A stretch of 64,000 bases of DNA from an uncultured Lachnospiraceae bacterium (lineage in GTDB: Bacteria; Bacillota; Clostridia; Lachnospirales; Lachnospiraceae). Below, in pieces: positions 28,133-29,757 of the stretch; position 1 is the stretch's first letter, and each line of letters begins with the position of its first letter. The position numbers and the translations under genes are program-made. The notes under the pieces were generated by a model. It searched no databases, had not been told where the DNA came from, and worked only from the letters and a program-made list of their open reading frames with translations. The DNA is taken from positions 1 through 64,000 of the forward strand of contig CANRFJ010000005.1 in NCBI GenBank assembly GCA_947629865.1. The letters are read 5' to 3'.

Positions 28133-28280
28133 ATTTGTTTCCTCCTTTTATTTTATAAACTCATCTCTTTTTTATAGTTTCGCTGTCTTATATATAGTAA
28201 TTATGCCTTTCACTATATTCAATCATTTTTATTATACAATATAAAGCATATAATAGCGAGAATTTTATCATTTTCAATTT

Positions 28281-28328
28281 TTTCTGCCAGCCTTTTTCCC
28301 GGCTGCTATGCGGCACCCGCCCTACTTA
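28281..28328. repeat. Left copy of a direct repeat flanking the abiF cassette
   Basis: About 48 bases, TTTCTGCCAGCC...GGCTGCTATGCGGCACCCGCC...CTTA, matching 29487-29533 with a few substitutions and one- or two-base gaps. The shared core TATGCGGCACCCGCC is identical in both. Confidence 0.75.
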
Positions 28329-28358: not shown

Positions 28359-28386
28359 TTGCAAAATCATCTACATTGTATATAAT
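28359..28386 (+). promoter_or_regulatory. Predicted promoter of the abiF RNA
   Basis: TTGCAA (28359-28364) and TATAAT (28381-28386) with a 16-base spacer. The predicted start falls at about 28393, just before the structured RNA. Confidence 0.75.
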
Positions 28387-28392
28387 AATACT

Positions 28393-28448
28393 TAATAGAG
28401 CCCACCACGCCTCTGGTTTACTATGCGCAACCCGGTGGGACTTTTTTT
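28393..28448 (+). ncRNA. abiF-like structured RNA upstream of AbiF
   Basis: About 55 nt. The outer stem CCCACC (28401-28406) pairs with GGTGGG (28434-28439) and is followed by ACTTTTTTT. An inner stem GGTT (28415-28418) pairs with AACC (28429-28432). The loop GCG (28425-28427) can pair with CGC (28408-28410) as a pseudoknot. Position, size and shape match the abiF RNA motif described upstream of Abi-type HEPN genes. It would be both a terminated small RNA and a barrier in front of the gene. An RNA-antitoxin role is inferred from the published AbiF/RNA work as I recall it. Confidence 0.75.
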
Positions 28449-28463
28449 CTTTGAGGTGATGTT

Positions 28464-29378
28464 ATGCAAAACTATCCAAAACAGATTCTATCCATAAAAC
28501 AACAGGTACAGTCCCTAAAAGATGCCGGAATGTCCATCCCATCTGACGAAGAAGCTGCAGAGTATCTTCAAAAGGTAGGCTATTACCGCCTGCGGGGGTA
28601 CACCTATACCTTTTATGACAACACATCCAAACAGTATCGTTCAGACACTGATTTTACAAAAATAGTAAAGCTCTATGAATTTGATACCAGGTTATCAAAT
28701 CTGCTGTTTTCTTATCTGTCCATAATTGAAGTTTCCCTTAGAGTCCGTCTTACTGAAAGCCTGCTGATTTATGGGGATGCCCTAATCCTCACTGATCCTA
28801 CCTGCTTCAAAAGCAAACAGATTTACTGGCAAAATAATGCTGCTATCTGTTCTGAAATTGCACGTTCGCATGATGTTTTTATAAAACACAATTATATTAA
28901 CCATGACGGCAAAATTCCTCTTTGGGCAGCCGTAGAAGTTTTATCATTTGGCACACTTTCCAAAATCATTAAAAATCTGAATACAGGAAACGGAAGTGCC
29001 TTTGCCAAATTGTCAGGCTACTACAAATTCAAGTCTAGAAAAGGCAATATGGTCACACCTTCAAACAGTACCTTAACGTCTTGGATTAAATCTTTAGTAA
29101 TACTGCGAAACACGTGTGCGCATAATGCAAGAATATACAACAAACCATTTAACATAACCCCAAAAATCATCAAAGCGGATAAAGTAGTACCACAGCCCTC
29201 ACATTCCGGTTTGTACGAATTGGTATTAGCTATGAAATATCTCCGCCCGGATAATCCCAGTTGGGAAAATTTTTCTGCCGATTTGAAACAGTTACTCGCT
29301 GAATATGATTCCTATATAAAACTGTCTGCAATAAATTTCCCAACTGATTGGGCAGACCACTTAAATGTCACTGCATAA
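28464..29378 (+). CDS. abiF: AbiF/AbiD-type (Abi_2) HEPN abortive-infection protein
   Basis: 304 residues of the Abi_2 family. The N-terminal signature EYLQKVGYYRLRGYTYTF (about 33-50) and the body segment YEFDTRLSNLLFSYLSIIEVSLR are diagnostic. Near residues 210-225 is RNTCAHNARIYN, an R-x4-H HEPN ribonuclease motif. Such proteins are growth-arrest RNases acting after phage infection. SD GAGGTG precedes the ATG at 28464, only 15 bases after the abiF-like RNA ends. No protein antitoxin is adjacent. The low GC and flanking repeats suggest a mobile cassette. Confidence 0.88.
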   Translation: MQNYPKQILSIKQQVQSLKDAGMSIPSDEEAAEYLQKVGYYRLRGYTYTFYDNTSKQYRSDTDFTKIVKLYEFDTRLSNLLFSYLSIIEVSLRVRLTESLLIYGDALILTDPTCFKSKQIYWQNNAAICSEIARSHDVFIKHNYINHDGKIPLWAAVEVLSFGTLSKIIKNLNTGNGSAFAKLSGYYKFKSRKGNMVTPSNSTLTSWIKSLVILRNTCAHNARIYNKPFNITPKIIKADKVVPQPSHSGLYELVLAMKYLRPDNPSWENFSADLKQLLAEYDSYIKLSAINFPTDWADHLNVTA

Positions 29379-29456
29379 TTACCATCTGCTTACATATACT
29401 AAAAATGATAGAGCCTGTTACACCTCTGCAGCATGTGCAAAAAACAGGACTTTCAT

Positions 29457-29489
29457 GGGATTCCCTGAAACTTTTCGGGAATCCCTTTT
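29457..29489 (+). terminator. Terminator downstream of abiF
   Basis: GGGATTCCC (29457-29465) pairs with GGGAATCCC (29477-29485), followed by TTTT, about 80 bases after the stop. It abuts the right-hand direct repeat. Confidence 0.75.
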
Positions 29490-29533
29490 CTGCCGGCCTT
29501 TTCCCCTGCTGTTATGCGGCACCCGCCTCCCTT
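29487..29533. repeat. Right copy of the direct repeat flanking the abiF cassette
   Basis: Matches 28281-28328 in the same orientation: TTTCTGCCGGCC...GCTGTTATGCGGCACCCGCC...CTTA. Confidence 0.75.
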
Positions 29534-29757
29534 ACGCTACATTCACTACAAAACCTTTCAAACCATGGTCAAAATCCACACTTGAATTTCTGCCATAATT
29601 ATATTATATTGAACTTAAAGAAAGGCATCTGCTGTAACAGATGCCTCTCAAACGGATAGTGTCCAACTCCAAAAGTGGATGCTCCCAAGCAAAGGTTTTA
29701 ATGTCCTAAAGGACACCGCCTAGCCTGTTTGCCGACAGGTTAGGCATTTTTATTTTT
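29534..29757. other. Intergenic stretch with hairpins after the abiF cassette
   Basis: No gene is visible. It holds a hairpin GGCATCTG/CAGATGCC (about 29621-29642) without a T tract and a small GTGTCC...GGACAC inverted repeat (29659-29716) of unknown origin. A plus-strand terminator is GCCTAGCCTGT/ACAGGTTAGGC (29718-29745) with ATTTTTATTTTT. No intact gene feeds that terminator, which suggests deleted material. Confidence 0.55.

Follow-up and report, generated by a model that had tools for sequence, protein, structure and literature searches.

How is a HEPN toxin gene with no protein antitoxin beside it kept in check, and by how many RNAs? The question is raised by an abiF gene in a 64,000-nucleotide stretch of DNA (the window) from the 2.64-Mb draft genome (51 contigs) of an uncultured gut bacterium of the Lachnospiraceae, which a preliminary description read as a two-part module of one small RNA and one RNase. 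Our analysis alters that picture, since besides the RNA upstream of the gene (RNA-A) a second abiF-like RNA (RNA-B) lies downstream of it, with promoter-like boxes and a terminator of its own (Table 1). The whole module appears to comprise one toxin and two flanking RNAs that are diverged and differently promoted, an arrangement that may have been published before.

Table 1. Features of the abiF module in the window, in order of position
Feature	Position	Strand	Basis
49-nt direct repeat flanking the module, left copy	28280-28328	.	repeat search
RNA-A promoter (abiF too, by read-through), TTGCAA-N16-TATAAT	28359-28386	+	promoter scan, 43 loci
RNA-A, abiF-type RNA	28393-28448 (motif 28401-28439)	+	Rfam abiF 35.0 bits, model R2 75.9 bits
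abiF, 304 aa, Abi_2 HEPN protein	28464-29378	+	Pfam PF07751, PADLOC AbiD, PDB 8vz6
RNA-B promoter-like boxes, GCATAAT (overlaps stop codon)-N13-CATATACT	29373-29400	+	box search in relatives
RNA-B motif, CCTGTT-A-CAC-CTCTGCAGCAT-GTG-CAAAA-AACAGG	29414-29448	+	R2 28.6 bits, E 1.9e-5; covariation
Terminator hairpin and T-run after RNA-B	29457-29489 (hairpin 29457-29485)	+	inverted repeat I6, terminator scan
49-nt direct repeat, right copy	29486-29534	.	86% identical to left copy

AbiF and the upstream RNA

The abiF product matches the Pfam Abi_2 family with 157.1 bits (gathering score 25.6, E 8e-46) and PADLOC AbiD with 292 bits, and carries the HEPN catalytic motif (R-polar-XXX-H) as RNTCAH at residues 215–220 (R215-N-T-C-A-H220), the R, N, C, A and H of which are invariant among eight aligned AbiF sequences. 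A profile of eight sequences, that of the window included, matches one solved structure, PDB 8vz6 (E 6.8e-37), the PbAbiF dimer bound to its ncRNA, and a fold search with the AlphaFold model (pLDDT 82.9) returns the same entry (E 7.9e-14, TM 0.80) as its sole match at E ≤ 0.001. The gene is thus a HEPN-bearing Abi_2 gene, as first described, and its product looks like a growth-arresting, RNA-cutting toxin. The kinship with Cas13 that had also been put forward is published for AbiF in general; the window protein itself matches 8vz6 and none of the Cas13 chains significantly in the fold search (best E 0.54), and with one HEPN motif in 304 residues it lacks the two fused HEPN domains of Cas13.

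No protein antitoxin was seen at the locus, in agreement with the preliminary description: the neighbours of the module are an opposed flavodoxin gene and an opposed T2SSE ATPase gene, and a 77-aa frame 3′ of abiF matched no Pfam family. The 22-base core of the flanking 49-nt repeat has no further copy in the own genome with up to three mismatches allowed. Three relatives (L068, L069 and G018) have a stretch resembling the repeat on the left side only, so it may be a recombination trace or stem from a lost tandem copy.

Upstream of the gene, RNA-A forms two nested stems of 6 bp and 3 bp (CCCACC-A-CGC...GCG-CAACCC-GGTGGG), followed by ACTTTTTTT. Its final T (28448) is separated by 15 bases from the abiF ATG (28464), and the hairpin and U-tract would also serve as a terminator, one that our terminator scan did not list because the loop limit of the scan is 8 bases; the start at 28393 was placed from the position of the −10 box. 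With the Rfam abiF model (RF03085), the check originally proposed for this RNA, a search of 1351 bases gave a match of 35.0 bits (E 3.1e-4), under the cut-off of 37, so that nothing is returned at the gathering score. Across the own genome RNA-A was the one match at E ≤ 1 (E 1.4e-4), in a search run under filters that lose weak matches. The single-sequence folding energy of RNA-A is unremarkable (z −1.2). Among relatives, it is present in 44 of 44 subfamily loci that hold the gene's 5′ end, which is more than chance would give.

The promoter of RNA-A has 10 of 12 consensus matches and shares first rank among 10 sites in 2.4 kb, which alone is weak evidence since shuffles give 6.7 ± 2.5 such sites. 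At the same place in relatives, 35 of 43 loci (counting the window, which itself has 4 matches) carry a −35 that agrees with TTGACA at 5 or 6 positions, and 41 of 43 a −10 that agrees with TATAAT at 5 or 6 of 6. The consensus promoter and the RNA of two nested stems with its U-tract terminator 15 bases before the gene are thus as the preliminary description had them. Its possible pseudoknot (alignment columns 4–7 with 20–23) lacks support: the 34 RNA-A sequences show no compensatory change and leave 14 of 136 cells unpaired, and the minimum-energy fold pairs those 5′ bases with the 3′ CUUU. The loops of RNA-A are enlarged in ten loci (L072, L073, L084, L095, L097, L099, L101 and L103–L105), some perhaps with extra apical hairpins.

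RNA-A and abiF are a further member of the known kind of RNA-restrained AbiF. Homologous RNAs are reported to bind and neutralise AbiF in cis and in trans (PMC12373285, PMC12737573), and RNA-A should act likewise at this locus given its homology to RCd22 and AbiFr. Restraint of an AbiF RNase by a small RNA, as first proposed, is the best reading and partly supported, having been shown for the homologues AbiFCd/RCd22 and PbAbiF; the proposal counted one RNA only.

A second abiF-like RNA past the gene

RNA-B begins 35 bases past the abiF stop codon, in the context ATAGAG-(motif)-ACTTTC, and repeats the hairpin design of RNA-A; its transcript would run from about 29407 to 29489. The range first given for the module, which ends at 29489, holds RNA-A and the gene, and also this second RNA, which went unmentioned. 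By itself the RNA-B of the window folds no better than shuffles (z −1.0, against −4.7 when the terminator hairpin is included), which counts against our main reading, and the Rfam abiF model does not list it in the window up to E 10. Its geometry score of 24.9 is equalled by 3 of 1000 shuffles, and bare hairpin geometry, with 38 of 1282 window pieces scoring at least 24, was rejected as a test because it is too common to serve as evidence. The case for RNA-B therefore rests on relatives.

A family alignment scan yielded 54 loci on genome contigs and 7 on viral contigs, the nearest named ones from uncultured Lachnospiraceae and other Clostridia, with a few from elsewhere. Identity to the window protein is 47–60% in most loci, 86–95% in five, 70% in one viral locus and 25–29% in eight distant ones. 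Fifty of the 61 loci were tabulated, the 11 left out being the eight distant loci (L119–L121, L124–L128) and three with partial genes (L108, L113, L118); L117, whose gene is broken, was counted for RNA-A only. With model R1, RNA-B was found in 47 of 47 loci that extend past the gene's 3′ end by 100 bases or more, and the loci with both gene ends have both RNAs in 42 of 42 cases. Since RNA-B sequences were used to train R1, the count establishes that RNA-B is universal in these loci and is no independent discovery of it; elsewhere in the loci R1 gave a single match (E 0.46), and in the 64-kb window it found the places of RNA-A and RNA-B only, up to E 10.

An independent test is provided by model R2, trained only on 34 RNA-A sequences and on no RNA-B. 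In the window R2 scored RNA-A at 75.9 bits, the window row being part of its training set, and RNA-B at 28.6 bits (E 1.9e-5), with nothing else up to E 10. Over 48 loci it returned 74 matches at E ≤ 1, 43 at the place of RNA-A, 31 at that of RNA-B and none elsewhere, detecting RNA-B in 31 of the 47 loci that carry it. The relative set is redundant, and shrinks to 17 loci under 80% protein identity when L075 is left out.

The stems of RNA-B also covary. In 44 distinct sequences 98.7% of cells are paired, 7 of the 9 pairs have changed on both sides, and doubly changed cells number 63 compared with 13.1 in shuffles. Pairing falls to 12–47% when the partner is slid out of register, and RNAalifold, unaided, returns the same nine pairs. 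The geometry counts given above are what speaks for RNA-B being a chance hairpin beside an AbiF system of the ordinary single-RNA kind; at the level of the subfamily this is refuted by the held-out detection of RNA-B, by its universality and by its covariation, and the probability of the chance reading is next to nil.

RNA-A and RNA-B are separate kinds by their R2 scores (62–84 bits for the 43 RNA-A matches, 17–43 bits for the 31 RNA-B matches), and within one locus their cores agree at 50–76%. The bulge is mostly CAACCC in RNA-A and mostly CAAACC in RNA-B (CAAAA in the window clade). Over 28 loci RNA-A is the more conserved, with a mean pairwise difference of 0.159 compared with 0.335 for RNA-B, which would fit a GC stem that has to act as a transcription terminator as well; the agreement of RNA and protein distances in 28 loci is not significant (Mantel r 0.17–0.24, p 0.06–0.10). 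The RNA-Bs of the largest clade have a short loop (ATTTAT and similar) and lack the CUCU loop of RNA-A and Rfam, and hence may not bind AbiF in the same way. A search pattern for RNA-B that required a CTCT (then CT) loop was dropped: it found only the window clade and G074, and was corrected by the raw downstream sequence. Several RNA-Bs may form an extra short basal helix that is clade-specific (GAC/GTC, GAT/ATC, AAGC/GCTT), judged by eye in columns 1–4 and 53–59 of alignment A4, with a shifting register.

Applied at its cut-off, the Rfam abiF model picks up RNA-B in 8 of 16 relatives; of the 15 with an RNA-A, it picks up that RNA in 1. Since the model detects the RNA-B of relatives, downstream members may already sit in the Rfam alignment. 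In 39 of the more distant Abi_2 matches listed, R1 (E ≤ 5) finds an upstream RNA in 15 cases and a downstream RNA in none, with at least 400 bases past the match on the 3′ side in 38 of the 39. In phage phiC2 of C. difficile R1 finds two motifs, both upstream only, and in the Listeria phage and Alicyclobacillus plasmid loci it finds no match. The flanking pair thus looks like a feature of the window subfamily, as neither the distant loci nor phiC2 have a downstream RNA. The own genome holds a second, distant Abi_2-like gene (L022, G000:C9:61775-62056; 25% identity, E 5.7e-4), at which neither R1 nor the Rfam abiF model detected an RNA.

Some loci have lost part of the module. A search of 397 genomes turned up four in which abiF is mostly or wholly gone and RNA-B remains: G065 (L137/L031), G244 (L134), G344 (L141) and G431 (L143), with RNA-A kept as well in G065 and G344. 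Loss of the toxin with the RNA kept would be expected if the gene is harmful, and a recent deletion would look alike. Counting against our main reading, the decayed copies in G226 and G300 have RNA-A and an N-terminal scrap of the gene with no RNA-B match. RNA-A without an RNA-B match is also found at L113, where the protein match stops at residue 147 in mid-contig, and at L117, a locus that looks recombinant, since the N-terminal half of AbiF is followed there by a broken stretch carrying another Abi-like HEPN motif. Separately, G408 (C1:1104067-1117598) holds two complete RNA-A/abiF/RNA-B modules that share one orientation and are separated by about 12 kb, and L032 (G081:C24) has two abiF-like motifs in tandem at 1448-1540, at a locus with no ORF of at least 150 aa bearing a HEPN motif.

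The differing bulge gives some room to the idea that RNA-B is no inhibitor, acting instead as a decoy or activating competitor of RNA-A or surviving as a relic of an ancestor's tandem array, such as C. difficile has, as the published inhibitory bases sit in a bulge (PMC12737573). The presence of RNA-B in all 47 loci and under structural selection argues that it is no mere relic, and the four toxin-less remnants retain it, for which recent deletion would account too. We hold a non-inhibitory RNA-B to be very improbable.

Promoter-like boxes and the proposed supply of RNA-B

The boxes before RNA-B are not those of RNA-A. A CATANNNT box stands 11–14 bases before the model start in 43 of 48 RNA-B loci (CATATACT in the window) and at RNA-A in 1 of 43, and a −35 with at least 5 matches to TTGACA is found at RNA-B in 0 of 48. 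In the 17 divergent loci (<80% identity; L075 was excluded in advance) the box keeps its C, A, T, A and final T in 16, 17, 16, 17 and 16, respectively, and ATA lies 14–17 nt upstream of it in 13, where shuffles give a mean of 2.9 and a maximum of 9 (2000 runs). Over all loci, ATA at the sigma E spacing precedes the box in 31 of 48, the window among them, and is absent in 17. The box holds its place relative to RNA-B even though it can lie anywhere between 14 and 90 nt from the stop codon. Both strands of the 64-kb window contain 17 two-box sites, that of RNA-B included. Promoters of the mother-cell sigma factors E and K are described with CATANNNT as −10, and those of sigma E with ATA at the −35 place (PMC3789822, PMC517825). 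In sequence the RNA-B boxes resemble them in both respects, and they are unlike sigma E promoters in the 17 of 48 loci with no ATA at the expected spacing.

RNA-B might also be a 3′ UTR element of read-through abiF mRNA, with no start of its own, that tethers or captures new AbiF on its own message or is a cut-out by-product, each mRNA then bringing its antitoxin along. In 47 of 47 loci it does share the gene's strand and begin 14–110 nt past the stop codon, the terminator after it in the window would end the abiF mRNA too, and processing of the cognate RNA by AbiF has been reported (PMC12737573). A 3′ UTR element would, however, need no conserved CATANNNT box at near-fixed spacing from RNA-B despite the variable distance from the stop codon, and we consider this origin decidedly unlikely.

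The own genome holds sigma E above the cut-off (370 bits), as do 37 of 46 genomes of relatives; three more (L089, L097, L101) have it at full length but below the cut-off, and six have only partial matches or ones resembling other sigma factors. Holdemanella (L075), without full-length sigma E, has the weakest RNA-B score (R1, 32.1 bits) and no CATA box. In L078 (Hornefia), L080, L087, L088 and L107, host genomes for which completeness is not given, RNA-B and the box are kept and full-length sigma E was not found, which counts against our main reading; a link of RNA-B with sporulation is put forward here as a hypothesis. The mother-cell genes spoIVA and spoIIIAA were used as promoter controls. 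At spoIVA, 9 of 10 genomes have the two-box pattern upstream, including the own genome with the CATATACT octamer and ATA upstream of it. At spoIIIAA only 4 of 11 have it, the own genome's spoIIIAA lacking it; the pattern occurs in 3 of 72 frames of the window. For CATANNNT alone the counts are 10 of 10, 9 of 11 and 20 of 72.

Both the hosts in which full-length sigma E was not found and the 4 of 11 genomes with the pattern at spoIIIAA are points in favour of RNA-B as a second dose of antitoxin made from an ordinary sigma-A promoter whose −35 is poor, with no sporulation link. The TANNNT core of a sigma-A −10 is present within CATANNNT, which leaves room for a weak sigma-A promoter. In 43 of 48 loci the best −10 hexamer agrees with TATAAT at 5 or 6 of its 6 positions; 32% of shuffles attain at least 5. 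A sigma-A −10 is not known to require the C and A that precede the TA core, yet these are kept in 16 and 17 of the 17 divergent loci; together with the missing TTGACA-like −35 (0 of 48) and the ATA at the sigma E place (13 of 17), this leads us to regard an ordinary sigma-A promoter as somewhat unlikely.

As far as the DNA goes, both RNAs are there, orthologous across genera, with covariation in RNA-B and differing promoter boxes. The reading we hold probable is a type III-like module in which one HEPN RNase, AbiF, is flanked by two distinct antitoxin-like RNAs that are separately switched. RNA-A would be made from a housekeeping promoter and mostly stop at its own hairpin-terminator, which would throttle abiF transcription, and it would bind the AbiF dimer and keep it inactive. 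For RNA-B, we infer transcription, AbiF binding, neutralisation and timing. It would be made downstream from its own promoter, end at its own terminator and most likely bind AbiF as well, since it keeps the two stems, the CAA bulge and the same bulged-hairpin fold. Its own promoter-like boxes and terminator suggest a separately timed supply, and because its promoter resembles the sigma E/K type and not the sigma-A type of RNA-A, it would most likely supply antitoxin as RNA-A transcription falls, for example in the sporulating mother cell. Such a supply may amount to double insurance, with a housekeeping-sigma RNA for growth and a separately evolved mother-cell-sigma RNA in spore formation, or the toxin may be re-timed, a real possibility that we hold tentatively; if true, it would let the cell outlive a HEPN RNase through the polymerase change during spore formation.

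Known systems and implications

The closest parallel is AbiFCd/RCd22 of C. difficile prophages, in which the RNA binds AbiF and acts both in cis, by termination before abiF, and in trans, and toxicity needs the R and H of the HEPN motif (PMC12373285). Reported there and common to the window locus are an Abi_2 HEPN protein with RNXCAH, a sigma-A promoter, an upstream abiF-motif RNA, a terminator before the gene with read-through to abiF, and two abiF motifs per toxin gene; in C. difficile, however, both motifs stand in tandem in one upstream RNA, whereas in the window one is upstream and one downstream (PMC12373285). PbAbiF with AbiFr (8vz6, Zilberzwige-Tal et al. 2025) shares fold (TM 0.80) and profile match with the window AbiF. 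It is reported to bind one RNA per monomer, with bulge nucleotides that inhibit the RNase (PMC12737573), and has one RNA kind, unlike the window locus, which encodes two (PMC12737573, PMC12373285), so that AbiF dimers with mixed RNAs may be possible. The two stems, bulged A and CAA bulge of RF03085 are common to RNA-A and RNA-B, of which in the window the former scores below the Rfam cut-off and the latter is not listed.

With ToxIN and other type III toxin-antitoxin systems the module shares a protein RNase toxin, an upstream RNA antitoxin and a terminator between them, as described in PMC12373285 and as read for the window from the hairpin and T-run before the ATG. It differs in its HEPN toxin, which is not of the ToxN fold, in the extra downstream RNA and in having no tandem antitoxin array (PMC12373285). 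In place of tandem repeats within an antitoxin RNA, one motif lies upstream and the second past the gene.

A 2017 paper in NAR is reportedly the source of the abiF motif, and a 2025 paper in Cell is said to treat AbiF and Cas13. Apart from these two, the accessible parts of the AbiF literature, including PMC12373285, PMC12737573, PMC12165695 and PMC12804078, hold no mention of an RNA downstream of abiF. Searches that look upstream only, or that apply only the Rfam cut-off, can miss one or both RNAs, as in the window.

The ancestors of Cas13 are held to be relatives of AbiF, whose RNA is seen as a possible precursor of guide RNA. This subfamily, in which each toxin comes with two diverged RNAs that stay distinct across genera, is a natural case for studying one HEPN dimer with two RNA partners. 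If RNA-B is under sporulation control, a defence-type toxin would be linked to development, which may hint at how such toxins persist in spore-formers.
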